From: Candidatus Heimdallarchaeota archaeon LC_3
Lineage (GTDB): Archaea; Asgardarchaeota; Heimdallarchaeia; Hodarchaeales; LC-3
Length of the DNA: 12,778 bases
Direction of reading: 5' to 3'
NCBI GenBank assembly: GCA_001940645.1
Contig: MDVS01000052.1
Coordinates: 1 to 12,778, forward strand
Below are positions 1 through 12,778 of the stretch, piece after piece. Both the position numbers and the translations under genes were made by a program. The first letter of the stretch is position 1. Every line of letters starts with the position of its first letter. The notes under the pieces are model-generated. The model was not told where the DNA came from. It saw only the letters and a list, made by a program, of their open reading frames with translations, and did not search any database.

Positions 1-2
1 TC

Positions 3-158
3 CTTAAAGGTCGTGTAGTTCCGGTTAGAGGATTAATAAAGGTTAGAAAATATGTTCTGTTCGCGTGTATTCTCTCTCAATTAATAGGCAAGGTGAATTG
101 GATTAAAATCCACAAACGAAACAGATTTTCTTTAATTAAGCTCAATAAATTCATTTAA
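3..158 (+). CDS. Possible 3' end of an upstream gene (partial, unrecognised)
   Basis: One plus-strand frame is open from the window edge for 51 codons and stops with TAA at 156-158. The predicted tail is basic (ending in KLNKFI) and matches no family I recognise. The first 120 bases look less AT-rich than the DNA that follows, and a run of nine T residues begins six bases after the stop. Both fit the end of a transcribed unit. The other two plus frames stop within the first 20 bases. It could instead be the end of a non-coding RNA or chance; the missing upstream sequence would decide. Confidence 0.25.
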   Translation, partial: LKGRVVPVRGLIKVRKYVLFACILSQLIGKVNWIKIHKRNRFSLIKLNKFI

Positions 159-164
159 TATTTG

Positions 165-173
165 TTTTTTTTT
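165..173 (+). terminator. T-tract, candidate transcription terminator of the upstream unit
   Basis: Nine consecutive T residues lie just downstream of the TAA at 156-158, with further T-rich sequence on both sides. Archaeal transcription commonly ends on such U-tracts without a hairpin, and I see no stem directly upstream. Confidence 0.35.
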
Positions 174-628
174 CTTTATAGAGATTTTTCTACTTAAATT
201 ATGGCCTGTGCTTCATTTCAAAATATTTTTAAACGCTTGGCCATAAATGAGATATAAAAAATTTCTTTTTGCAATAGCCTATATATATATTAATAACTAA
301 TTTATGCTTGATTAAATTCTTACTAAATGAAGCTAATATAACAGCCCGAATCATAGAAAAAATTGATTTGAAAATTTTGAAAAATGGAATTATTAATTTT
401 CAATTTCTCTTCAAATGAAGATAAGTAGGGATAATTGGAAGTGTATTTACAAGAACTGAAATGATAGAGAAGATCATAGATTTTTATATGAATTTAGGCG
501 TGACGATGCGGATTAAGTAGCCTGATATTACTATATTAAAACATAGAAATATTTTTTTTGGGTTTTGTCAACAAAACTTTTGTCATAATGTAGCAAAATG
601 ATTAAGATTTTATTTATATTTAACCTAA

Positions 629-751
629 TTATTTACCATTTTGCTCAATTCTAGTTAATATGATAAATATTTTTTCTTTTTTTGAATACTTAGGTTCGTT
701 GGGAAGACCATTAAAGATATCAAAATCATAATCTCTTATCATTTCATCCAT
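629..751 (-). CDS. Doubtful small ORF, 40 residues, divergent from metF
   Basis: An ATG at 749-751 (minus strand) opens 40 codons to TAA at 629-631. The product is charged and has a mixed, protein-like composition (for example NGLPNEPKYSKKEK). It does not look like the low-complexity I/N/K/F string expected from random AT-rich DNA. An in-frame TGA lies three codons upstream, so the ORF cannot extend further. No ribosome site precedes it, and only 36 bases separate its start from the metF start. It may be a small gene, a remnant of a longer one, or chance. I assign no function. Confidence 0.2.
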   Translation of the reverse strand: MDEMIRDYDFDIFNGLPNEPKYSKKEKIFIILTRIEQNGK

Positions 752-787
752 TATTTCATATCATTACAACTACTTTGGAAAATTACT

Positions 788-1750
788 ATGAAAATACACG
801 AATACATTAAGGATCATCAAGGGGAACCTTTTATTAGTTTTGAACTTATTCCACCTAAAAGAGGTGCAAGATATCGAGACATTGAAGAGCGTATTGAAAT
901 TCTCAGTAGATTTAATCCCCCTTTTATCGATGTTACTACACATGCTTCAGAAATTATTTACCAAGAATCAAAATCTGGTATTAAAAAACTTTTCAAAAAG
1001 AAACGGCCAGGTACACATGGTATTTGTGCAATTATTCAACATAAGTTTGGGATTGAAGCAGTTCCACATATACTCTGTCGCGGGTTTACTCGCGAAGAAA
1101 CAGAAGATTTATGCATAGATCTACATTATTTAGGTATTAATAATGTGTTGGCAGTTCAGGGCGATGAAAGAGGTTATGAACCTCCGTATGTAAATGGAGG
1201 TCACAATCGTTATGCTAATGAACTGGTTTCCCAAATTAATAATCTCAAAGAAGGAATTTATCTTGATGAAGATTCTTTAAATGAGGAAACCTTTGATTTT
1301 TGTATCGGTGTTGGTGCTTACCCAGAAAAACATTATGAAGCTCCTAATATGGAATATGATTTACAATTTCTCAAGCAAAAAATTGATGCTGGAGCTTGTT
1401 ATATGGTTACACAGATGTTTTATGATAATCAAGCATTTAAATCATTTGTAAAACAAGCTTCTGATTTTGGGATAAATGCCCCTATTATCCCTGGATTGAA
1501 GGTTTTTACATCTAAAAAGCAATTAAACAGTCTTCCTAAAATTTTTCATATCAACATTCCCCCAGAACTTACAAAAAGGACGATGAAAGCTAATGATTCA
1601 AATATTTTAGATATCGGAATCAAATGGGCCGTTGAACAATGTAAAGACCTATTGGAATTTGGTGTTCCAGGTATTCACTTCTATGTTCTAGAGAATGCTT
1701 CTGTAGTTGCTAAAGTTATTGACCAATTGAAAGATAAGAAATTAATTTAG
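788..1750 (+). CDS. metF: 5,10-methylenetetrahydrofolate reductase
   Basis: A cytosolic flavoprotein, 320 residues, that reduces 5,10-methylene-THF to 5-methyl-THF, the methyl donor for the methionine synthase encoded next. It shows the family marks in order: SFELIPP near the N-terminus with the expected catalytic Glu at residue 19, LAVQGDE with Asp126 (equivalent to the LRGD motif), GAYPEKHYEAPN around 176-187, VTQMFYDN with Gln209, PIIPGLK near 232-238, and GVPGIHFYVLEN near the end. Length is normal for a single-domain MetF (about 290-320). The RPGTHGICAIIQ block and the PIIPGLK to PKIFHINIPPEL block recall Bacteroidota-type MetF from memory, which suggests a bacterial origin for the gene. 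The start ATG at 788 has only a weak GGAA about ten bases upstream. It is the first gene of an operon, with 13 bases to metH. Confidence 0.95.
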   Translation: MKIHEYIKDHQGEPFISFELIPPKRGARYRDIEERIEILSRFNPPFIDVTTHASEIIYQESKSGIKKLFKKKRPGTHGICAIIQHKFGIEAVPHILCRGFTREETEDLCIDLHYLGINNVLAVQGDERGYEPPYVNGGHNRYANELVSQINNLKEGIYLDEDSLNEETFDFCIGVGAYPEKHYEAPNMEYDLQFLKQKIDAGACYMVTQMFYDNQAFKSFVKQASDFGINAPIIPGLKVFTSKKQLNSLPKIFHINIPPELTKRTMKANDSNILDIGIKWAVEQCKDLLEFGVPGIHFYVLENASVVAKVIDQLKDKKLI

Positions 1751-1753
1751 GAG
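1749..1753 (+). promoter_or_regulatory. Ribosome binding site that sets the TTG start of metH
   Basis: AGGAG begins inside the metF stop codon and lies ten bases before the TTG at 1764. This supports TTG initiation and translational coupling of metH to metF, rather than initiation at the internal ATG at residue 20. Confidence 0.6.
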
Positions 1754-1763
1754 AATTAAATAT

Positions 1764-4301
1764 TTGAATCAATTAATAACTGAATCAGAATTATCTATTA
1801 CTACACGTCTACAAACTTTAATGAATCAACGAATTGTGATCATTGATGGAGCTATGGGGACTGCAATACAGGATTTTAATTTATCTGCTGATGATTTTGG
1901 TGGCCCTCAATACGAAGGGTGCAATGAATATCTAGTTATTTCAAAACCTGAAGTCATTAAAAAGATTCATTTGGATTATCTTGAAGCCGGGGCCGATATT
2001 ATAGAAACCAATACTTTTGGTGCCACAAGTGTGGTGCTCGATGAATATCAACTAGGGGATCAAGCTTTTGAAATTAATAAACAAGCAGCTAGGATAGCAA
2101 AAGAAGTAGCAAGTAAGTTTACTGATCGTTTTGTAGCTGGTTCCATAGGTCCTACAACAAAAAGTCTTATTGTCACAGGAGGAATTACCTTTGATGAACT
2201 ACGTGATAGTTATTATCAACAGGCAGCAGGATTATTAGCAGGTGGGGTAGATTTATTTTTTATAGAAACAGGCCAAGATACCTTAAATATGAAGGCTGCT
2301 TTAGTAGCAGTTCAACAAGTCTGTCAAGAACAACAAGTCAATCGGCCAATTTTTCTCTCTGGAAGTATACTTGAACAAGGTGCTATGTTAGCCGGTCAAG
2401 AAATTGAAGCTTTTTTCACAAGCTTGCGATATAGTCAACCTTTTGCCATCGGTATGAATTGCGCTGTTGGACCTAAAGACATGTACCCACATTTACAACA
2501 GCTCAATGAGTTAAGTGATCTACCTGTGTTTATATTTCCTAATGCAGGTCTTCCAAACACTGAAGGACAATATGAGGAAACACCTGAAATGTTCACCAAA
2601 AATATTACTCCCTATTTAAAAAATGGCTGGGTGAATTTAGTTGGAGGTTGTTGTGGTACAACAGCTAAGCATATAAAATTACTTAAACAAGCAACAGAAG
2701 GAATAATTCCCCGAAAATTTGAGAAAAAGCAATCTTTATTTCAGGTTTCCGGTGTCGATCGTGTTACTCCTGATGAGAAACAAAGACCAATATTTGTAGG
2801 GGAACGAACCAATGTTCAAGGCAGTCGTAAGTTCAAAGATCTTATTAGAAATGGTGATTTTGATAAAGCCTTATCCATAGCTAAACAACAAGTATTAACA
2901 GGGGCACAAATTATTGATATATGCTTAGAAGACACTGAAGTTAATGAAATAGATACCATAAATGATTTTTATTCCCGTGTCGTAAAAGCTGTGAAAGTCC
3001 CTATTATGATTGATTCAACTGATCCAGAGGCAATTGAAGTAGCTTTAAAGCATTTACAGGGGAAGGGTATTATTAATTCTATTAATTTAGAAAGTGGTAC
3101 TGAAAGAATTGATAAAATTGTTCCATTAGTAAAAAAATATGGCGCATCTGTTGTTGTTGGTCTTATAGATGAACAAGGAATGGCTGTCACCTATGAAAGA
3201 AAGATAGAGGTAGCAGAACGGTTATATAATCTCTTAACAACAACCTATGGATTAGCAGATGAAGATTTAATTTTTGATCCATTAGTATTTACTGTAGACA
3301 ACACAGATCCTACATATCAAGATAGTCCAAAAGCAACTATTGATACAATAAAGACACTAAAAGAAAGGTTTCCAGCCTGTTTAACAATTCTTGGTGTTTC
3401 TAATGTTTCATTCGGATTACCGGGAGCAGGTCGCGAAGTATTAAATTCTGTTTATCTCTATCATGCTACACAAGCAGGATTAGACTTAGCAATAATTAAT
3501 CCAGCTACCATTAAACGATATAATTCCCTGGAAGAAGAAGAAATAAAACTTGTAAACACACTGCTATTCAACAAAACTGTGGATGCGATTCAAACCTTTA
3601 GTAATAAATACAAACAAACAGTACCAAAAGATGATAGACTTTTGGTTAATTTATCTCCTGAAGAATTTATTCATCGTGCAATTGTTTTAGGAGACCATGA
3701 TAGATTAGAAGAAACAATAGTTTCACTTCTTAATAAATACCCTGCTTTAGAAATTATAAGTAATATTTTAATGAAGGCAATGGATGAAGTGGGTGAATTA
3801 TTTGGTGATGGTAAACTTATTGTTACTGAAGTTCTTCAAAGTGCTGAAGTTATGAAAGCTACTATTGATCGTGTGCAGCCACATATTCCTCAAAAGGATT
3901 TAGGAATCAAAAAGAAGATTATTGTGGCTACAGTAAAGGGAGACGTACATGACATTGGTAAAAATTTAGTAAAAATTATTTTTACTAGTAATGGGTTTGA
4001 GGTTATTGATTTGGGAATTAAAGTTGATAGTCCAGCAATAATACGAGCAGTAAAAGATCATAAACCTGATGCAATAGGATTAAGTGGATTATTAATAAAA
4101 AGTGCAAAACAAATGGTTATAACGGCTGAAAGTTTAAGTGCTAACAATATTACTATACCGCTTATGGTTGGAGGAGCAGCTTTGACAAAACGCTTTGCTG
4201 AGACTCAGATTCAAGATGCTTATAAAGGAAAAATTCATTACGCTAAGGATGCGATGACTGGCTTATCAATGTTACAGAATATTTTTCCAAGAGCAAGTTA
4301 G
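1764..4301 (+). CDS. metH: Cobalamin-dependent methionine synthase, lacking the C-terminal reactivation domain
   Basis: Transfers a methyl group from 5-methyl-THF through cobalamin to homocysteine. Domains in 845 residues: homocysteine-binding barrel (about 15-310) with zinc ligands Cys233 in GMNCAVGP and Cys296-Cys297 in GGCCGTT; pterin-binding barrel (about 340-600) opening with FVGERTNVQGSRKF, then MIDST at 415-419 and GVSNVSFGLPG near 544-554; helical cobalamin cap (about 635-710); Rossmann cobalamin domain (about 715-845) with D727-V-H729-D-I-G732, where His729 is the lower axial cobalt ligand, GLSGLLIKS at 772-780 and VGGAALTKR near 802-810. The protein ends after the cobalamin domain, whereas E. 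coli MetH (about 1227 residues) continues into the AdoMet-binding reactivation domain. Here that domain is the next gene. TTG start, supported by AGGAG ten bases upstream. Central gene of the metF-metH operon. Confidence 0.95.
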   Translation: MNQLITESELSITTRLQTLMNQRIVIIDGAMGTAIQDFNLSADDFGGPQYEGCNEYLVISKPEVIKKIHLDYLEAGADIIETNTFGATSVVLDEYQLGDQAFEINKQAARIAKEVASKFTDRFVAGSIGPTTKSLIVTGGITFDELRDSYYQQAAGLLAGGVDLFFIETGQDTLNMKAALVAVQQVCQEQQVNRPIFLSGSILEQGAMLAGQEIEAFFTSLRYSQPFAIGMNCAVGPKDMYPHLQQLNELSDLPVFIFPNAGLPNTEGQYEETPEMFTKNITPYLKNGWVNLVGGCCGTTAKHIKLLKQATEGIIPRKFEKKQSLFQVSGVDRVTPDEKQRPIFVGERTNVQGSRKFKDLIRNGDFDKALSIAKQQVLTGAQIIDICLEDTEVNEIDTINDFYSRVVKAVKVPIMIDSTDPEAIEVALKHLQGKGIINSINLESGTERIDKIVPLVKKYGASVVVGLIDEQGMAVTYERKIEVAERLYNLLTTTYGLADEDLIFDPLVFTVDNTDPTYQDSPKATIDTIKTLKERFPACLTILGVSNVSFGLPGAGREVLNSVYLYHATQAGLDLAIINPATIKRYNSLEEEEIKLVNTLLFNKTVDAIQTFSNKYKQTVPKDDRLLVNLSPEEFIHRAIVLGDHDRLEETIVSLLNKYPALEIISNILMKAMDEVGELFGDGKLIVTEVLQSAEVMKATIDRVQPHIPQKDLGIKKKIIVATVKGDVHDIGKNLVKIIFTSNGFEVIDLGIKVDSPAIIRAVKDHKPDAIGLSGLLIKSAKQMVITAESLSANNITIPLMVGGAALTKRFAETQIQDAYKGKIHYAKDAMTGLSMLQNIFPRAS

Positions 4302-4311
4302 TGAATTATTT

Positions 4312-5130
4312 GTGACGAAACCAATCATTCCTATTTTATCAGACTTACCGGCTCCTCCAGATTATCAACTTCATAGTAAAGAAGATTATTCTTTTACTGA
4401 GATTTGGAAATTAATTGGAACCAAGATGTTTCATAACAAAATATTGGGATATAAAGGTAATTTTAATCTTGATTTAGAAAATAGTGTTCAATCCGCAGTT
4501 ACGCTAAATGACCAATTAAACCGTGTCAAAGAATATATATTATCAAATAATTTTAATCTCATGCAACCTAAAGCCACATGGCAGTTTTTCAAAACAAAAA
4601 TAGTTGATGAAAATCTTTTAATAGTAGAAAAATCATCCAATGAGGTTTTACAATCATTTATTTTTCCCAGACAAAATAAAGGAAAAAAATTGTGCTTGAT
4701 TGATTATCTTAACCCGAAAGCTGATTCAATAGCGTTCTATGCATGTACATCTGGTAATAAAGTAAGTGAATTAGCAAATATTTGGATTGATGAAGGGAGA
4801 TATCAAGATTCATTTATTTTACAGGGATTAGCATTAGCAACTGCTGAGGCATTAGCTGAATTTGTTCACAAAGAAATTCGATCTTCATGGGGATTTCCAG
4901 ATCGATTTAATATAACTTTAGAAGAAATAATGCTAGCAAAATATCGAGGATGTCGATATAGTTTTGGATATCCTGCTTGTCCAAATTTGGAGGATCAAAA
5001 GAAATTATGGCAATTACTAAGACCAGAAAGAATTAAAATGGAACTTACCGAGGGATATATGATGGATCCAGAAGCATCAGTATCAGCTTTGGTATTCCAC
5101 CACCCAGAAGCTAAGTATTTTAGTGTTTAG
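4312..5130 (+). CDS. Stand-alone MetH reactivation (AdoMet-binding) domain protein
   Basis: A 272-residue protein equivalent to the C-terminal activation domain of full-length MetH, which binds S-adenosylmethionine and supports reductive methylation of inactive cob(II)alamin. The evidence is the C-terminal half: RGCRYSFGYPACP (212-224) corresponds to the RxxxGYPACP signature, followed by ELTEGYMMDPEASVSALV, a final HHPEAKYFSV, and FPRQNKGKKLCLIDY near 118-132. The first 80 residues are a helical lead-in. It starts with GTG ten bases after the metH stop in another frame. The frame above the GTG is open back to a TGA at 4255 but offers no better start. A similar split is known in Thermotoga, where MetH and its reactivation domain are separate genes. 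It probably docks on the 845-residue MetH. No strong ribosome site is visible. Confidence 0.9.
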   Translation: MTKPIIPILSDLPAPPDYQLHSKEDYSFTEIWKLIGTKMFHNKILGYKGNFNLDLENSVQSAVTLNDQLNRVKEYILSNNFNLMQPKATWQFFKTKIVDENLLIVEKSSNEVLQSFIFPRQNKGKKLCLIDYLNPKADSIAFYACTSGNKVSELANIWIDEGRYQDSFILQGLALATAEALAEFVHKEIRSSWGFPDRFNITLEEIMLAKYRGCRYSFGYPACPNLEDQKKLWQLLRPERIKMELTEGYMMDPEASVSALVFHHPEAKYFSV

Positions 5131-5137
5131 AAAAAAC

Positions 5138-5144
5138 TTTTTTT
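5138..5144 (+). terminator. T-tract terminator of the methionine operon
   Basis: Seven T residues start eight bases after the stop codon of the reactivation-domain gene, followed by more T-rich sequence up to 5160. There is no clear stem. The position between two convergent genes fits termination; the opposite strand carries a T-rich stretch around 5207-5220 that could serve the facing gene. Confidence 0.4.
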
Positions 5145-5237
5145 CAATTTCTTTATTTTACAAAAAATAAACTATCTCTAAGTTAACTATGTAAAGAATT
5201 TTAATAAAGAAAAATAAGGGTTAAATCAGCTTCTACT

Positions 5238-5939
5238 TTAGAAAGGTAGGAAAGGTTGTATTAGAGAAGCTAATAGTCCAATTTCCCTATTTTGAGTATA
5301 AACTACTCCTGGTCCAGTATAACGGATAACAAATCCTTCTCCACCAAGTACAAAGCTCTTTCTTCCACCTACTTTGCTTATTTTGTGTTGCATATCAGCA
5401 GTGTAAGCCATCATAACACCTGTATCTACGACAAATTCTTTTCCTGCTTCTATTTCATGTCTTTCAACCATTCCATACCCCCCAAACCAAACGTCTCCAT
5501 CTGCTTCTGCTGTAACAGTAGTTTGAAAAAGACCTTCTCCACCAAATAATTGTTTACCAGAAGCTTTTGTTGATACAGCAATGCTTGTTGTACCACAAAT
5601 ATAAGCATCTCGGCTTAAAACCCATTGTTCACCTTGTTTCATGTGTAAATGGATTATATCACCAGGTGCTCCATGAGAAAAAGACACTTTTCCGGAATTA
5701 GCTCCATCTGGGAGTGTGAAATAATTTTGGAACATTGATTCTCCACCGAACATTCTCTTTATACCCTTCCTTATTCCTCCAGAGGATTTAGTAGTCATTT
5801 CAATATGTCCATCCATATATATCATAGCCCCACCTTCAGCAACAACTTGTTGCCCGGGTTTATCTAAAAAGATTTCCACTGAAGCGAAAGATGGACTTCC
5901 TCTAATTTCATATTTCAAAAACGATTCTTTTTCTGACAT
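5238..5939 (-). CDS. AIM24 / TIGR00266 family protein
   Basis: A 233-residue protein of the AIM24 (DUF124) family, a beta-rich fold found in bacteria, archaea and mitochondria. No biochemical activity is firmly assigned for the prokaryotic members. Family marks are AEGGAMIYMDG near 34-44, FGGESMFQNYFTLP near 65, the related FGGEGLFQTTVTAEADG in the middle, VDTGVMMAY, and GEGFVIRYTGPGVVYTQNR at the end. The three related FGGES/FGGEG/LGGEG segments reflect the internal repeat of the fold. It has no signal peptide or membrane helix, so it is probably cytosolic. I place the start at the ATG (5937-5939). The frame extends 13 codons further to a TTG at 5978, but those residues are not family-like. 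It stands alone, convergent with the methionine operon and divergent from the small membrane protein gene. Confidence 0.85.
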   Translation of the reverse strand: MSEKESFLKYEIRGSPSFASVEIFLDKPGQQVVAEGGAMIYMDGHIEMTTKSSGGIRKGIKRMFGGESMFQNYFTLPDGANSGKVSFSHGAPGDIIHLHMKQGEQWVLSRDAYICGTTSIAVSTKASGKQLFGGEGLFQTTVTAEADGDVWFGGYGMVERHEIEAGKEFVVDTGVMMAYTADMQHKISKVGGRKSFVLGGEGFVIRYTGPGVVYTQNREIGLLASLIQPFLPF

Positions 5940-6009
5940 TATTTTAACACCAATGTTTAAGATTTTGTTAACGCACAAACTTCGGATATGTTTTTCTTAA
6001 GAAATTTGA

Positions 6010-6028
6010 TTATAAAATGATTATAAAG
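6010..6028 (-). promoter_or_regulatory. Candidate promoter of the AIM24 family gene (TATA-like)
   Basis: Read on the minus strand, two overlapping TATA-like boxes (CTTTATAATC and TTTTATAATC) lie about 70-90 bases upstream of the chosen ATG. They would place a start of transcription near 5985-5995 if an archaeal TATA box is used. They also contain TATAAT, so a bacterial -10 element is an alternative reading. Confidence 0.3.
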
Positions 6029-6095
6029 AGTAACTTAATTAACATGTTTGAATATTTTTAGTTTTAAATATTGATAAGATTACCTATTTCAGACC

Positions 6096-6101
6096 TATAA
6101 T
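6096..6101 (+). promoter_or_regulatory. Candidate promoter element of the small membrane protein gene
   Basis: TATAAT sits 21 bases before the ATG at 6123. As an archaeal TATA box this would give an almost leaderless transcript. As a bacterial -10 it pairs with TTGATA at 6071-6076 (spacing 19), but would start inside or at the coding sequence. No ribosome site precedes the ATG, which favours the leaderless reading. Confidence 0.3.
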
Positions 6102-6122
6102 AATTTAAATCTGTGGTTTCTT

Positions 6123-6563
6123 ATGGGAAATAATATTAGCAATTTAGGATATACAAGTTTTTTTTTATTCGGAATTCTTCTGATACTAACAGGATCATCA
6201 TTGCTGTTTATTCTTGATATTCTAAATTCCACCAATTTCGGACTAATTAGTGGGATAATTTTAGGTGGATTTCTTATTTTGGCAGTTTGTATAAATTGGT
6301 TAAGGAATTTATTAAAATTGCACCATATTATCAAAGATATTATTAATTTTCTAGGATTTATTTTAATAATCCTTGGAAGCTGGTTTCTTTTGATTCGAAC
6401 AATTGCTCTTCCACCAAATTTTGAACCAAATGACATTGGAATTTACTGGTTTACCCAATCTTTTAATCTATTATGGTCTTTTTTACCAGTTATCGTAATA
6501 TTTTTTGGTTTTTATTTATATAAAATAGCTGAATACTTCCCAAAAAAGGAAGATGAAAGGTAA
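6123..6563 (+). CDS. Small four-helix membrane protein, function unknown
   Basis: A 146-residue protein I do not recognise. Four hydrophobic segments are predicted at about 11-31, 38-58, 73-93 and 116-134. The loop between helices 2 and 3 is basic (RNLLKLHHIIKD), and the C-terminal tail is charged (FPKKEDER). Both ends therefore probably face the cytoplasm. The loop between helices 3 and 4 is about 20 residues, with prolines and acidic residues (PPNFEPND). It lies on the same strand as the peptide transporter, 283 bases ahead of it, with a T-tract and a separate promoter candidate between, so it is probably not in that operon. Its layout resembles the membrane insertion in DppF (see findings). 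A minus-strand ORF over the same bases looks like a shadow. Confidence 0.7.
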   Translation: MGNNISNLGYTSFFLFGILLILTGSSLLFILDILNSTNFGLISGIILGGFLILAVCINWLRNLLKLHHIIKDIINFLGFILIILGSWFLLIRTIALPPNFEPNDIGIYWFTQSFNLLWSFLPVIVIFFGFYLYKIAEYFPKKEDER

Positions 6564-6578
6564 AATCTTTATTATTTA

Positions 6579-6585
6579 TTTTTTT
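6579..6585 (+). terminator. T-tract after the small membrane protein gene
   Basis: Seven T residues, 16 bases downstream of the stop codon, within a T-rich stretch. This is a plausible U-tract terminator separating this gene from the transporter operon. The rest of the 283-base gap up to 6846 has no ORF of note. Confidence 0.35.
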
Positions 6586-6799
6586 AAAGCTAAATCAACT
6601 TTATGAAATAGATTCTCAGAGTAATTTTCAAATGAAGATCTTCTATGTCGTATAAAGTAAAATCTAATCTTAATGAATTGTAATTTTAATTTTTTGCATC
6701 AAACTTACACTATAAGTTACTAAAAATTCTTAAAAATCATCAATTAAATATGCAAATCTAACAATATTTTTCTTAAAAACCAATAATTTAAGATTTTTC

Positions 6800-6837
6800 T
6801 TTTATAATTAGAACAAATCATTGCTTCTTATTAAGGA
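6800..6837 (+). promoter_or_regulatory. Candidate promoter and ribosome site of the peptide transporter operon
   Basis: CTTTTATAAT at 6799-6808 is a TATA-like box about 40 bases ahead of the dppB start. It would place transcription initiation near 6830 under archaeal spacing. AAGGA at 6833-6837 is nine bases before the ATG and is a plausible ribosome site. A bacterial -10 reading is possible, but no good -35 is seen. Confidence 0.4.
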
Positions 6838-6846
6838 TTTACTATT

Positions 6847-8541
6847 ATGACTAGTTTAAAGACTTTTGTTTTACAGAGGTTAGCTTTGATTCCAGTTACT
6901 ATATTTTTTATGGTTACAATGATTTTTTTTATTCTGAGAGTCGTTCCTGGTAGAAATCCAATAAGGGCAATAAATCCTCAACTTCCCCTTGATAAAGTTG
7001 AAGAAATTTCTGCACTTTTAGGCTTGAATAGACCAATTTTAGATCAATACTTCAATTTTCTTGAACGAATTTTAAATTTAGATTTTGGAGTTTCTTTTAA
7101 GTCTGGAACGGTTATTCTTGATGAATTAGTACCAAGGTTTGCAGCAACGATAGAACTTACATTAGTAGCAGTATTAATTGGTATGCCATTAGGGATTTAC
7201 GTTGGTACATATTCTGGACGTTGGAGAGAAACTAGGAGAGATCACTTACTTAGGATTTACTCGATAGCTGTATTTGCTGTTCCAATTTTCTTATTCGGAA
7301 TTTATATTCAATATATTTTTGGAATTATACTTCAAGTTGATGGAGTAGGTTGGATATCTCCTAATCTGAGAACAAGTGGTGGAGTTTCTGGAGTTATTAA
7401 TGCTGTAACTGGTATTTATTTGATCGATTCTTTATTTTTCTCAGGGATTGTTGGTGGAGAAGTCATTTTTTTCCTCATTGGAATCTTGCTACTCGTTTCT
7501 GGAATGCTTGGATGGTTTTATCTCAAAAGAAATGAAATAAAGGAACTCATATCAAATCAACTAACAAGTTTTATAGTAACTCTTATTGCATTATCGATCA
7601 TAGGAGTAATATTGTTTGAAATATTGGAATCAGTACAAATTTTCGAGCTCATTATAGTAATTTTAGTATTTTTTATTGGAGTTCTTGCATGGTTAATGGC
7701 ATATAAAAATCAATCAAAATTACATTCATTTAGTGAACCACGAAATATTTTGTTAGCTTTTGTATTCTTTATTTCAATCGTCTACTTTTTATTATATCAA
7801 GGAATATTTCATCCAATAAGTGAAATAATTTTTCGGTATACAGAATTCTCAATCGATAACCTTATTTCAGAATTTATCTCTTTTATTCCTGGCTTACTAT
7901 TTTTTCCTTTTCAAGTATTAATCTTTCTAATAGGAATTTTAATTTGGCCACTAACATTGAAAGCTTTTTCACAGAATTCTCGTAAATTTATGAAAAAAAC
8001 TTGGCTTTTAGGATTAATTATTAGTTTATTGCCTCTTATTCTTTATCTTTGGGAATCTTGGTATGATCCAAGGTTTGAAGTTTCTGCTGCAGATGTACCA
8101 GTTACTGGGTTTTATTTATTTACTGATGTGATAGTTCACTTACTTTTACCAGGTTTTGCGTTAGCCCTTCTTATTTCGGGAGTTGTTTCACGTGTCGTTA
8201 GGACTAATATGATTGTAGCCATGAATGAAGCTTATATTGATGCATCAAGAGCACGAGGTATTGCAGAGAAAAAGATTGTATATAACTATGCCCAAAAAAA
8301 TGCAACTATACCTGCAATACCATTATTTGGAACGCAATTTGCATTATTGCTCGCGGGAGCTTTGTTAACTGAGACTACTTTTTCTTATCGAGGTTTAGGA
8401 TTTTATCTATTCCAAGCTATTCAGTCTCAGGATTTTCCTCAAATAGAAGCAGCTATAGTTTTCCTAACGTTTTCAGTTGCAATTGTAAGTTTTTTTACAG
8501 ATTTACTTTATGCAAGTCTTGATCCACGCGTAAGACTATAA
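6847..8541 (+). CDS. dppB: Peptide ABC importer permease (DppB/OppB type) with a large six-helix insertion
   Basis: Membrane subunit of a dipeptide/oligopeptide importer, 564 residues against the usual 310-340. The canonical first half is residues 1-200: helix 1 at 11-31, LLGLNRPILDQYFNFL, DFGVSF, helices at about 101-122 and 136-163, GWISPNLR, and TGIYLIDSL. The canonical end is 417-564: HLLLPGFALAL, the EAA loop around 460-491 (EAYIDASRARGI to NATIP) that contacts the ATPases, LTETTFSYRGLG, and a final DLLYASLDPRVRL. Between them, about 201-416 is extra and contains six hydrophobic segments (about 203-225, 240-259, 263-285, 300-317, 345-370, 385-402). Basic loops at 227-233, 286-299 and 371-384 would face the cytoplasm. 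Six is even, so the canonical topology is kept. First gene of the operon, 40 bases before dppC. The Dpp/Opp substrate cannot be told from sequence. Confidence 0.92.
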   Translation: MTSLKTFVLQRLALIPVTIFFMVTMIFFILRVVPGRNPIRAINPQLPLDKVEEISALLGLNRPILDQYFNFLERILNLDFGVSFKSGTVILDELVPRFAATIELTLVAVLIGMPLGIYVGTYSGRWRETRRDHLLRIYSIAVFAVPIFLFGIYIQYIFGIILQVDGVGWISPNLRTSGGVSGVINAVTGIYLIDSLFFSGIVGGEVIFFLIGILLLVSGMLGWFYLKRNEIKELISNQLTSFIVTLIALSIIGVILFEILESVQIFELIIVILVFFIGVLAWLMAYKNQSKLHSFSEPRNILLAFVFFISIVYFLLYQGIFHPISEIIFRYTEFSIDNLISEFISFIPGLLFFPFQVLIFLIGILIWPLTLKAFSQNSRKFMKKTWLLGLIISLLPLILYLWESWYDPRFEVSAADVPVTGFYLFTDVIVHLLLPGFALALLISGVVSRVVRTNMIVAMNEAYIDASRARGIAEKKIVYNYAQKNATIPAIPLFGTQFALLLAGALLTETTFSYRGLGFYLFQAIQSQDFPQIEAAIVFLTFSVAIVSFFTDLLYASLDPRVRL

Positions 8542-8581
8542 TAAATTAAAATTATTCATTAAATTATTGAGAACGATAAAT

Positions 8582-10594
8582 ATGTCTGAAGAACAGCAAG
8601 ATACGGAAGTTTTACATTCTTTACCTTTTTTAGATTACAGAACAACCCCAATTTATCAACCACCGTCTTTTATTATTAGTATGTTCCTTTTTGTCTCAAT
8701 TATTCTATTATGGTTGATACAATTTGATTTAACATTTTTTTCATTTTCTTTTGTTGTTCCAGGTATTAACCTAAATATTATTAATTTTAGTGTTCAGGAA
8801 GTTGAACTTAGGTTCGTAGTGAATCTAGTTGTAACCTTAATATTGATAGCAGCTTTCATTGCCTTAGTATTAAGAAGATTTAAATTTACTATTTTTCTTC
8901 TCATCATTTTGTTTTTCTATAATGCAATAGGTCTACCAAATGAAGTGAACGCTGATTCAATTCCGATAAAAGAATTCAATATTGCTTTTGATTTATTAAC
9001 AATTGTAATTTTGTTTGGTTTAATAGGTTCAATAGTATTTAGGAAAACTACTTTAGCATTGTTGTTATTAATTATTTCAGTATTCTACACATTCGTAGGG
9101 ACTCTGGGCATATATTCTTTTGTTATTAACTTTGATACTCCAGATTTTCAAGTGCCATTGATACTGTTGCAAGTAGCTGAACAATTTCAATTGTTGCGTG
9201 TTCAAATCCTTGTTTTCGCAAGTTTCTTGATCATATTTGTTTTAGTGTTACCAAGATTACATTCATGGTTTGCATATTTATCAAATTTTCTAACTAAATT
9301 TTATACATTAATTAGATTATTCAAATTTAAATCTTCAATGAAAATACATTGGAATGATTCTAAGTCGTTAATAAATGGACGTTGGAATGATTTTAAAAAT
9401 GAAGTTAATAATAAAAATGAAACGAAAATTAGCTCTATCTTATTTTATTTAAAAAAGCCAAAATTAATTGTAAAAGTACCTCTATTTTATTTAAAAAATC
9501 TAAAGTTAATTGTAAAATTAGCCTATATATTAGCTATTATTTCTGTAATTACAATCCTAACTGGAATAATTTCTTTACTTGATTTTCTTAGTTCTACTTC
9601 TAAAACACTTTTTAGTTTCTTAAAAAGTAAGACTTTAGCAATAGGATTAGCAATTGTGGTATTCTTCTTATTGATAGCAATTTTTGCTCCACAAATTGCT
9701 CCGTATGGTTTTGATGAACGACATATTAATTGTGGTGATAACAGAGTTTGTCGTCAAGCTCCTCCTAGTCCAGAACATCTAATGGGAACTAATACTATTG
9801 GATTTGATCTCTATAGTCGTATGATATGGGGAGCTCAAATACCGTTTATAATGAGTATATTTGCAGCGGTTTTAGCAATGTCCGTAGGTATACCAATAGG
9901 GTTAATTAGTGGATATTATGGTGGATTTACTGATAGAATATTGAATGCAACGATGGATCTTTTGTATTCTTTCCCTGCAATTCTATTTGCTATTACTTTA
10001 TCTTTATTTCTTTCCGATGTTCCATTCATTGGATCAGAAGAAGATGTCACGCCGAAAATAATTATCGTTGTCGGATTATCGGTAGGTTTAGTCTACATTC
10101 CAGTATTTTATAAAATTGTAAGATCACAAGTATTCCAAGTTAAAGAATTACCATATATTGAAGCTGTGAGATCTATTGGAGCATCTGATGGAACAATACA
10201 AACAAAATATATATTACCAAATGTAATAGCTAATCCTGTTTCTTTGATTCCGTTCCCTATGGTGGATGCAATACTGACAGCAGCAGCATTGGCTTTTTTA
10301 GGAATTGGATTACAAGCACCAACACCAGATTGGGGATTTGATCTAACTGAAGGATCTAGAGTCATTACCTCTTCTCCTTGGTGGGTAACTTACCCCGGTA
10401 TAATGATATTTTTACTGGCTTTTGCTTTTGCCTTGATTGGAGATGCCTTGAATGATCGATATAATCCACTGTTACAGTCCATAGAAGTCATCAAAAAAGG
10501 TGATGATCTTAAAAAGTTAGAAAATGAAGATAACTTAAAAGTAGCTAAAATTAATACGACGGAAGTAAAAAATAACGGACTTAGAGGGCAATAA
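8582..10594 (+). CDS. dppC: Peptide ABC importer permease (DppC/OppC type) with a long membrane-spanning N-terminal extension
   Basis: Second membrane subunit, 670 residues from the ATG at 8582 (a TTG five codons earlier is possible but less likely); DppC is usually 280-320. The canonical part is the C-terminal half from about 345: FLKSKTLAIGLAIV, IFAPQIAPYGFDE, HLMGTNTIGFDLYSRMIWGA, GLISGYYGG, the EAA loop at 527-547 (EAVRSIGAS to ILPN), LAFLGIGLQAPTPDWG, and DALNDRYNP. The extra N-terminal half has hydrophobic segments at about 30-48, 77-97, 102-118, 137-153, 156-180, 206-226 and 311-336. A strongly basic linker at about 227-310 contains two short tandem repeats. Seven extra segments create a parity problem with the canonical topology (see findings). 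Cys384 and Cys390 lie in the predicted external loop after helix 1 of the core. It sits between dppB and dppD. Confidence 0.9.
   Translation: MSEEQQDTEVLHSLPFLDYRTTPIYQPPSFIISMFLFVSIILLWLIQFDLTFFSFSFVVPGINLNIINFSVQEVELRFVVNLVVTLILIAAFIALVLRRFKFTIFLLIILFFYNAIGLPNEVNADSIPIKEFNIAFDLLTIVILFGLIGSIVFRKTTLALLLLIISVFYTFVGTLGIYSFVINFDTPDFQVPLILLQVAEQFQLLRVQILVFASFLIIFVLVLPRLHSWFAYLSNFLTKFYTLIRLFKFKSSMKIHWNDSKSLINGRWNDFKNEVNNKNETKISSILFYLKKPKLIVKVPLFYLKNLKLIVKLAYILAIISVITILTGIISLLDFLSSTSKTLFSFLKSKTLAIGLAIVVFFLLIAIFAPQIAPYGFDERHINCGDNRVCRQAPPSPEHLMGTNTIGFDLYSRMIWGAQIPFIMSIFAAVLAMSVGIPIGLISGYYGGFTDRILNATMDLLYSFPAILFAITLSLFLSDVPFIGSEEDVTPKIIIVVGLSVGLVYIPVFYKIVRSQVFQVKELPYIEAVRSIGASDGTIQTKYILPNVIANPVSLIPFPMVDAILTAAALAFLGIGLQAPTPDWGFDLTEGSRVITSSPWWVTYPGIMIFLLAFAFALIGDALNDRYNPLLQSIEVIKKGDDLKKLENEDNLKVAKINTTEVKNNGLRGQ
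9349..9414 (+). repeat. 33-bp tandem repeat inside dppC (11-residue unit)
   Basis: TTGGAATGATT occurs at 9349 and again at 9382, exactly 33 bases apart and in frame. The two 11-residue units are HWNDSKSLING-like and RWNDFKNEVNN-like. They lie in the basic linker of the N-terminal extension. The rest of each unit has diverged, so the duplication is old or only partial. Confidence 0.55.
9441..9524 (+). repeat. 42-bp tandem repeat inside dppC (14-residue unit)
   Basis: Two adjacent copies begin at 9441 and 9483, each starting TATTTTATTTAAAAAA and sharing TTAATTGTAAAA later. They encode LFYLKKPKLIVKVP and LFYLKNLKLIVKLA. The copies differ at only a few bases outside their last seven, which indicates a fairly recent in-frame duplication. 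Each unit is an amphipathic, lysine-rich segment that may lie on the membrane surface. Confidence 0.75.
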
Positions 10595-10644
10595 TAAGTA
10601 TAAACAACACATGAATCATTATGAAAAAGGAATTTTAAATAAAA

Positions 10645-11673
10645 ATGAGTCAATTAGATATTTCGGAGAAAGAAAAGTATCCAGTTTTAGAAATTAAAGA
10701 TCTACAAGTTTTTTTTCACACAAAACAGAAACCCGTTAGAGCTGTGGATGGTGTTAATCTAGCAATTAACTTTGGTGATTCATTAGGACTTGTTGGAGAA
10801 TCTGGTTGTGGTAAATCAACGCTCGGATTTTCTATTTTGAGGCTTTTAAAAAGTAATGGAGAAATAATAAATGGATCAGTCGTAGTAAATATGAATGGAA
10901 CTAGAGTTGACTTAACCAAACTTCCAGAACGACAAATGGAGAGAATTCGTGGTCGTTATGTATCAATGATTTTTCAAGCTGCGCAAGATTCATTAAATCC
11001 GTTACAAACTATTCGTGATCACCTTTCGGATACATTAGAAGCCCATGATATTGCTGAAGAAGATATCGAATCGAAAATTAACGAATTATTAATTGATTTA
11101 GAAATTCCTTTGAGTCGATTAGATGATAGACCTCACCAATTTTCTGGAGGAATGCAACAAAGAATATCAATAGCTCTGGCTTTAATTCTTGATCCATTTC
11201 TTGTCATTGCTGATGAACCTACAACTGCTCTTGATGTTCTTGTTCAAGCAAGAATAATTGGTATATTGAAATCACTAAAAAAAATCCACAATTTATCTCT
11301 AATTTTTATTAGCCACGATCTTGGTGTTATCGCTGACATAACAAACAAAATTGCTGTTATGTATGCTGGTCAAATTGTTGAAACTGGACCAACCGATGTT
11401 GTTTTCAGTAACCCTGGTCATCCTTATACTGTTGGGTTATTAAATGCAGTTCCAAATGTTCGAAAAGATATTGAAACACTTTCTTCTATTCCTGGGTCTC
11501 CTCCAGACTTGAAGAATCCTCCTTCGGGTTGCCGTTTTCATCCACGTTGTCCAAAAGCAAAAAAAATCTGTCAAGAAAAGTTTCCTTCCTTTTGGTCTCC
11601 AACCCAAGATCAAATTGTTCTTTGCCATATTTACGATCCTGAATACGAAACTTCACCAGAGGTGAAATTATGA
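10645..11673 (+). CDS. dppD: Peptide ABC importer ATP-binding subunit (DppD/OppD type)
   Basis: Cytoplasmic ATPase of normal length (342 residues) that drives the importer as a heterodimer with the next gene product. Motifs: Walker [10 protein letters not shown] at 51-59, Q-loop Gln111 in [12 protein letters not shown], signature FSGGMQQR at 166-173, Walker B LVIADE with Asp190-Glu191, D-loop ALDV, and switch His224 in FISHDLG. The C-terminal oligopeptide-transporter extension contains PGSPPDL and four cysteines (296, 302, 309, 327) in [15 protein letters not shown] and VLCH. This cysteine set is conserved in the Dpp/Opp ATPases and has been linked to an iron-sulfur cluster in some members. 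Unlike its partner it has no membrane insertion. Starts at ATG 10645, 50 bases after dppC; its stop overlaps the dppF start (ATGA). Confidence 0.95.
11659..11665 (+). promoter_or_regulatory. Strong ribosome binding site for dppF
   Basis: GAGGTGA lies inside the end of dppD, four bases before the ATG at 11670. It matches seven bases of the ideal GGAGGTGAT complement of the 16S rRNA 3' end. With the ATGA overlap this indicates coupled translation of the two ATPases and fixes the dppF start. Confidence 0.65.
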
Positions 11674-12778
11674 GTAGTTCTTCTGATTATCTTTTAGAAT
11701 TAAGGAACATTAAGAAATATTTCCCAGTTGAAAAGAGTATTATAGAAAGAATATTGGGAAGCTCTACTGAAGCAGTTCATGCAGTGGATGACATTACTTT
11801 AAAAATCAAAGAAAATGAAATTTTTGGGTTATGTGGTGAAAGTGGGTGTGGAAAGTCAACAACTGCTCGTGTAATCACTGGACTTGATTTTGAAACTGGC
11901 GGTGATTTTGTTTGGAAAGGTGAAATTAAATCAATTGCTGAAAGAAAGAAATTTTCTTTTAGAAAAAAAATTCAAATAATTTTTCAGAATCCCTTTCAAA
12001 GTCTTCATCCAAGAATGACAGTAGGTTCACAAGTTGCACATGCCTTGGAAATCCAACTAGATCATCCCCAAAGAGAATTATACATGAATTTTTCTCGATT
12101 AGGTACTAAAATCGCTTTGGTTATATTTTTTGCATCATTTTCACTATTAATATTGGGAAATATCTATGAATTATTGGAAACACTTGCTTCATTAGGAATT
12201 ATTATTTCAAAATCAACTTTTGAATTTTTTAGTTATTATGGTTTCCTAATATCAGTCGTTAGTTTTCTTCTCCTCAATTATATACCAAAACAGCTATTAT
12301 TTTATAAAATAATTAGAGGAATGGAAAATAGAGAAAAAGCTAACATGTTATTAAAATCAGATATTGGATCGAAAATATTTGGAATATCATTTTTCGTTGC
12401 TATTTATTTCGTTATACTTGGGATACAACCGAGTTCTCCTCTTGAAATAAATCTGTTCTCACAAAATTATCCAATAGATAACCCTGGGTTATTATTAATC
12501 TATACTGGTCTATTCGTATTTTTATTTGGTGGATTTCTTTATTTAAGATTTAATTACATCGCTAAACGTCGTTATCTTGATAAGGATGTCATTGTATTAT
12601 TTAAAGCTGTTGGATTAGTACCTGCTCCAGATTATTATTTAAAATATCCCCACCAATTATCAGGTGGTGAACGTCAAAGAGTAGCTATTGCTAGAGCTCT
12701 TATTCTTAATCCTAATCTTATTATCGCTGACGAGCCTACCTCTATGCTAGATGTATCAATAAGAGCATCCATATTGGA
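11670..12778 (+). CDS. dppF: Peptide ABC importer ATP-binding subunit (DppF/OppF type) interrupted by a four-helix membrane insertion (partial, runs off the window)
   Basis: Partner ATPase of DppD; 369 codons are visible and the 3' end is missing. ATPase motifs in one continuous frame: [12 protein letters not shown], Walker [10 protein letters not shown] at 56-64, Q-loop Gln106 in [15 protein letters not shown], then [16 protein letters not shown], signature LSGGERQR at 330-337, Walker B LIIADEP with Asp354-Glu355, and D-loop SMLDV. In E. coli DppF the Q-loop Gln and signature Ser are about 58 residues apart; here the distance is 225. The extra residues (about 132-305) contain hydrophobic segments at about 146-166, 187-206, 233-252 and 272-292. 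Loops before 146, at 207-232 and after 292 are basic, while the two external loops (167-186, 253-271) carry little positive charge. The count is even, so both halves of the ATPase stay cytoplasmic. The start is fixed by the ATGA overlap and strong ribosome site. Confidence 0.92.

Follow-up and report, generated by a model that had tools for sequence, protein, structure and literature searches.

The 12,778-nucleotide stretch of DNA analyzed here (hereafter the window; contig MDVS01000052.1, positions 1 to 12,778, of Candidatus Heimdallarchaeota archaeon LC_3) ends in a gene for a DppF/OppF-type ATPase of an ATP-binding cassette (ABC) transporter, in which predicted membrane segments break into an otherwise ordinary nucleotide-binding domain (NBD) just past the helix that comes after the Q-loop. 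In the textbook picture of ABC importers, two soluble ATPases move two membrane subunits via coupling helices. In the window, by prediction, the F-type ATPase of a Dpp/Opp peptide-type importer has turned into an integral membrane protein, and, to judge from the sequences, the design looks real and so far undescribed and not like an assembly error. A first-pass annotation of the window had proposed such an ATPase with four transmembrane helices; the comparisons below go beyond that view, in that the predicted trait is shared by a family whose members differ in how many hairpins they have.

The ATPase open reading frame (ORF; 11670..12776, on the + strand as are all transporter features given below) codes for 369 amino acids (aa) from an ATG start, and is open at its 3′ end, where the window stops short of the H-loop and the C-terminal oligo_HPY/Fe-S region. 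Walker A (aa 56-64, 11835..11861; G56-K62 invariant in the alignment) and the Q-loop QNP (aa 106-108, 11985..11993) are joined by a stop-free frame across the extra stretch to the ABC signature SGGERQ (aa 331-336, 12660..12677; invariant columns) and to Walker B with the catalytic glutamate, LIIADE (aa 350-355, 12717..12734), as the first-pass annotation had read it. These four motifs and a PF00005 match of 99.6 bits (curated cut-off, 25), split into two stretches, identify an ABC transporter ATPase, and ABC_tran was the only match in the Pfam scan of this ORF. Since the intact motifs are those of an ATPase, the subunit should still hydrolyse ATP. The closest solved relatives, found via the insert-bearing proteins P0002 and P0008, are Opp/Dpp ATPases, and the gene lies behind dppB, dppC and dppD; we therefore place the protein, in the broad sense, among the ATPase subunits of the Opp/Dpp/Nik type (PepT, TC 3.A.1.5; number from PMC7997004, which like the other papers cited is drawn on in excerpt), in agreement with its earlier description as DppF-type. 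Against the DppF equivalog NF043071 (cut-off 660) the truncated ORF of the window scores 138.3 bits, full-length P0002 239.5 and P0008 278.9; against the subfamily model NF008453 (cut-off 408) the respective scores are 163.2, 300 and 316.7. Because these values lie below the NCBIfam DppF cut-offs, we file it as an F-type relative and not as DppF. The C-terminal oligo_HPY domain (PF08352, precomputed Pfam) and four cysteines are found in P0002, and the window ORF ends upstream of them.

The insert comprises 174 residues (aa 130-303, 12057..12578) in the alignment, borders that lie close to the 12063-12584 and about 165 residues first proposed, and it sits in the helical subdomain between the helices that we take to be alpha3 and alpha4. 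A Kyte-Doolittle scan (19-residue window, peak threshold 1.6) gives four peaks of membrane type, at aa 148-166 (12111..12167; 2.24), aa 184-202 (12219..12275; 1.75), aa 232-250 (12363..12419; 2.11) and aa 274-292 (12489..12545; 2.21; containing Tyr 291). As controls, the soluble proteins of the window (MTHFR, MetH, B12 activation domain and AIM24) yielded zero peaks of at least 1.6, and its DppD one marginal peak (1.64). The positive-inside pattern noticed at first holds as well: lysines and arginines number 3, 1, 6, 0 and 2 in the successive loops from N to C; the three inside loops together hold 11, the two outside ones 1. This charge bias places both ends of the insert, by prediction, in the cytoplasm. 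The spacing from Q-loop to signature is 225 in the window ATPase, whereas 57-60 is common among the 228 proteins listed by our searches; larger spacings outside the insert family belong mainly to fused two-NBD proteins, in which the simple motif search spans from one NBD into the next, and three of these (P0161, P0173 and P0222) show one marginal peak each between the motifs (1.62-1.64). GC content by codon position across the insert is 0.36, 0.29 and 0.17, a coding-type pattern. By hydropathy and charge, then, the protein falls outside the peripheral, soluble importer ATPases, and it differs from fusions of an NBD with a transmembrane domain (half transporters, TagGH-type) in that its NBD is itself split by the segments, at a point between Q-loop and signature. 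We regard it as very probable that the helices of the insert are truly membrane-inserted.

An insert at the same site was found in at least 22 other database proteins, making 23 with the window protein (P0001); as relatives were drawn from the best 120 of 7976 and the best 120 of 7999 scored proteins, no frequency can be derived from these numbers. The relatives stem from jgi, ena, lgn and ncbi sources, and the four of 22 that carry an organism label (P0003, Hodarchaeales; P0007, Thorarchaeota; P0072, Hodarchaeum mangrovi; P0209, Hodarchaeota) belong to what we take to be Asgard lineages. P0002 (506 aa, on another contig) is 66% identical to the window protein over 98%, with 108/122 identical residues before the insert (89%), 77/174 inside it (44%) and 58/66 after it (88%). 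Three further proteins of 515-518 aa (P0004, P0005 and P0006) bear inserts of 183-184 aa, 14 proteins of 395-569 aa bear inserts of one-hairpin length (74-94 aa), three among the relatives listed have inserts of 138 aa, and P0181 (774 aa) has one of 435 aa with about 12 hydrophobic segments (11 at threshold 1.6). P0068 (569 aa, one-hairpin) also shows, by eye, an extra long, charged and repeat-like insert in its C-terminal cysteine region. When the number of segments was preset for each protein and the threshold lowered to 1.2, lysines and arginines over all 23 proteins made up 231 of 1026 residues in the loops assigned to the inside and 26 of 501 in those assigned to the outside; in this count P0218 and P0220 yielded three of four requested segments, and their last loop was scored as outside. 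In 21 proteins the inside loops are proportionally richer in the two residues; the exceptions are P0008 (9/32 vs 2/7) and P0072 (8/33 vs 1/3). It is also evident that the residue 13 places before the insert end, in or near the end of the last segment, is aromatic throughout (Tyr in 21/23, Phe in P0003 and Trp in P0216); in the window this is Tyr 291, which is conserved more than any other position of the insert and is its only residue among the invariant columns of a 13-row alignment. The insert by itself (P0002 aa 122-322) as a query matched only itself among 2748 candidates, and since even the window's own protein was missed, relatives of the insert cannot be traced in that way. In the model of P0008, a one-hairpin relative, the hairpin takes the form of two long helices and the core resembles OppF/DppF, which does not bear out the early concern that the segments might be buried soluble helices; the structural alignment rows of P0008 are no test of the hairpin.

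Trees were built on NBD cores with the inserts cut out. In a FastTree of 158 tips (reduced by word overlap from 409 NBD stretches, with all 23 insert-bearing ones kept), the 23 proteins fall into one clade with support 0.996, and in an IQ-TREE analysis of the 23 with their 36 nearest others they again form one clade (100/99), with the NBD of the window grouping with those of P0002 and P0003, which would put the source organism among the Asgard archaea near Hodarchaeales. An insert-free member of the clade was seen in neither tree, although tips were sampled by likeness to insert-bearing proteins and a close one could be missed. Among the ATPases sampled, the trait runs in one clade. The five four-segment proteins stand in two places in the IQ-TREE, as forced by the starred branches (P0181, P0216, P0218 and P0220 being counted with the one-hairpin group), and the simplest history would be a single origin with later growth; loss from a larger ancestor may be the alternative.

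The hairpins were also compared with one another, by segment-wise shuffles and with unit borders set by eye. Among the six units of P0181, the pairs 2-3, 2-4, 2-6, 3-4, 4-5 and 4-6 were reached by 0/500 shuffles, 3-5 and 5-6 by 1, 3-6 by 3 and 2-5 by 32, while unit 1 stands apart (1 to 116 of 500 against the other five). A tandem origin of units 2-6 is thus well supported at the sequence level. A profile built on the 14 one-hairpin inserts scores 32.8 bits against the last unit of P0181, 17.4 bits against hairpin 2 of the window (segments 3-4; E 1.9e-7 for one sequence; 15.2 bits in the whole ORF) and 12.6, 14.2 and 13.2 bits against the first hairpins of P0004, P0005 and P0006; the same profile matched neither window hairpin 1 nor either hairpin of P0002. 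Likeness between the two window hairpins was reached by 0/1000 shuffles, between those of P0002 by 179/1000, and in the cross-comparisons by 58/1000 (P0001 hairpin 1 with P0002 hairpin 2) and 597/1000 (P0001 hairpin 2 with P0002 hairpin 1). When seven one-hairpin inserts were compared with each P0001 hairpin, three of the 14 comparisons were reached by at most 10/500 shuffles (P0008 with hairpin 2, 2; P0009 with hairpin 2, 7; P0007 with hairpin 1, 10) and the other eleven by 50 to 492. For the window, a tandem duplication is therefore only suggested.

The location in the linker behind the permease-contacting helix, which the first-pass annotation had named, agrees with the alignment to E. coli DppF: the insert starts directly after the equivalent of N129, five residues past E124. 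In E. coli DppABCDF, S196, N210 and N214 of DppC contact N113 and E124 of DppF, the contact being mediated by the coupling helix, and the helical subdomain turns about 20 degrees between the inward- and outward-facing states of Dpp (PMC12136057). The coupling-helix cavity of pneumococcal FtsE is shaped by plastic regions, which include the C-terminal part of its helix alpha3 (PMC7468199). From this comparison the insert appears tied to the permease-facing side of the motor. The reading that we prefer, with a probability of roughly 0.6, is that the hairpins fix the ATPase to the membrane alongside DppC and brace the complex. Starting where the helical subdomain faces the permease, they would enter the bilayer close to DppC, the permease that pairs with DppF; there they would keep the ATPase attached to the complex and give it, besides the coupling helix, another point of contact with the membrane part; as the subdomain rotates in the ATP cycle, they could tilt along or restrain the rotation. 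An anchor or brace packed on lipid and permease is favoured over a catalytic or ligand-binding part because the sequence of the insert changes fast while its character is kept. A wider version is possible but decidedly more tentative: the F-type ATPase of an Asgard lineage would have become integral through a multiplying hairpin (one, two, about six), which would open a second mechanical route to the membrane that by-passes the coupling helix and would form, with the enlarged DppB and DppC, an extra membrane collar.

Several points weigh against the anchor. Both E. coli contact residues are replaced in the window, where histidines stand at aa 113 and 124, so the exact contacts must differ, and the placement beside DppC is drawn from the text of the paper and the alignment, not from coordinates. 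Without a preset number and at threshold 1.6, the segment count is even in only 18 of the 23 inserts (one in P0008 and P0009, three in P0216 and P0220, eleven in P0181), and the second segment is weak by hydropathy in P0008 (1.29) and P0009 (1.41). The four-segment stand-in P0002, modelled in place of the window ORF, is of low confidence in its middle part, with a predicted local distance difference test score of about 34-55 at residues 171-270. Finally, the Dpp system of E. coli functions without such an anchor.

The insert could instead be a neutral passenger, a hairpin that entered an insertion-tolerant linker once, was harmless, and has grown and shrunk since without a function of its own. 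Its fast divergence and the variation of segment number inside the clade would fit this explanation, and so would the permissive site. Four ATPases from relatives of G001, which we read as D-type and archaeal (L009, L017, L018 and L019), carry soluble inserts of a different sort at this position, and those of L017 and L019 show zinc-ribbon-like CxxC pairs, so the site accepts inserts; the F-type partners observed in three of these loci (L009, L017 and L019) instead have their soluble inserts upstream of the Q-loop, behind Walker A. No hydropathy peak lies between Walker A and signature in 38 NBDs (34 after removal of four duplicate places) in loci from relatives of G001 and L002, and 399 relatives of G001, none known as Asgard, gave ordinary ATPase matches only (39/399 at 1e-60, best 8.5e-66). 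As far as we looked, the membrane-type insert was encountered only in the clade described. A passenger, however, would hardly be expected to keep its charge bias in 21/23 and an aromatic residue at one place in 23/23, and no clade member was seen, within the limited sampling, to have lost it. We consider this explanation unlikely.

Somewhat less likely again is a regulatory sensor, in which the hairpins would read membrane tension, lipid make-up or a partner and set the ATPase activity through the helix behind the Q-loop. The position directly behind the permease-contacting helix and the presence of the insert in only one of the two ATPases of the window would suit such a role, in which the conserved tyrosine at the end of the last segment could serve as a contact point. 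Yet this tyrosine is the single invariant position of the insert across the 13 alignment rows, which leaves no obvious binding site, and the insert is the fastest-changing part of the protein.

The transporter genes stand in the row dppB, dppC, dppD and dppF-like, the last cut by the window end. The DppB-type permease (6847..8541, 564 aa) carries about 240 extra residues of hydrophobic character between its usual parts (about aa 186-425, with limits set by eye), and shows 12 hydropathy peaks vs 5 in E. coli DppB by the same count. The DppC-type permease (8567..10594, 675 aa) bears an N-terminal extension of about 345 aa with seven peaks ahead of the OppC_N domain, and has 13 peaks vs 4 in E. 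coli DppC. The DppD-type partner ATPase (10645..11673, 342 aa) lacks the insert. The extra peaks of the two permeases in the same operon could speak for an additional transport part, in which hairpins and enlarged DppB and DppC would together make up a further membrane domain, either contributing to the substrate path or having a transport activity of its own, most plausibly in P0181 with its many segments. We hold this to be improbable, in that the extras of DppB, DppC and DppF and a neighbouring 146-aa ORF lack significant mutual likeness (shuffles reached in 67 to 451 of 500) and Pfam finds an ABC ATPase domain alone in the window ORF. That 146-aa ORF (6123-6563) lies 283 bases upstream of dppB and has four hydropathy peaks and no Pfam match. 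The same hairpin in DppB, DppC or the 146-aa ORF was considered and rejected, as the one-hairpin profile and the shuffles gave no above-chance match. The first-pass annotation had named a misassembly or chimeric join as one possible refutation. An artefact by a chimeric contig or a frame-shifted join is hardly credible: the window sequence does come from a single contig, but P0002, P0004, P0005 and P0006 with their similarly long inserts and 18 further proteins share the site in several sources, and the coding-type base pattern continues through the insert.

Upstream of the transporter, an MTHFR-like ORF (788-1750) precedes a methionine synthase in two genes (1764-5130), an 845-aa MetH-like ORF and, 10 bases on, a separate ORF for the B12 activation domain (PF02965); the names MTHFR and MetH were assigned by eye and not by profile. 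Between these genes and the transporter lies, on the - strand, an AIM24-family ORF (5238-5978; PF01987, 189.6 bits).

If the anchor is true, a second membrane link can be added to an ABC motor without breaking the motor, and the transmission of NBD motion would become testable by adding or removing a natural hairpin. An increase from one hairpin to about six within a catalytic domain would likewise be a clean case of membrane-domain enlargement.

In line with the first-pass remark that no member of this shape is known to have been described, no account of an ABC ATPase with membrane hairpins inside its NBD was found among the titles listed from the open-licence literature, subscription papers lying outside that scope. 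ABC NBDs are split by insertions in Rad50/SMC and UvrA, whose inserts are soluble (coiled coil, zinc modules), and we know of none of these that is a membrane hairpin. In the teichoic acid exporters of the TagGH type the NBD subunit is TagH. The excerpted survey of Asgard transporters records the PepT family in all four metagenomes and is, in that excerpt, silent on such an insert (PMC7997004). In the ABCF proteins (EttA and others) NBD1 is split by the Arm subdomain, a soluble insert and not a membrane hairpin (PMC6723617). The D-type ATPases above share the insert site, and differ in their soluble insert and in being D-type rather than F-type subunits. E. coli DppF and OppF (PDB 8z1v, 8z21) resemble the window ATPase in NBD fold (from the models of P0002 and P0008), motifs and partner genes dppB, dppC and dppD, and their C-terminal region with four cysteines recurs in P0002, not in the truncated window ORF; E. 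coli DppF, however, is a peripheral subunit with a short linker where the window has 174 residues with four hydrophobic segments. A near parallel, with an ABC ATPase subunit integral to the membrane, is the B. subtilis exporter, whose NBD subunit the excerpt names TagG; there the NBD is followed by a fused membrane helix, beyond which lies an extracellular C-terminal domain (PMC11466899), whereas in the window ATPase the segments interrupt the NBD and both ends are predicted to return to the cytoplasm.
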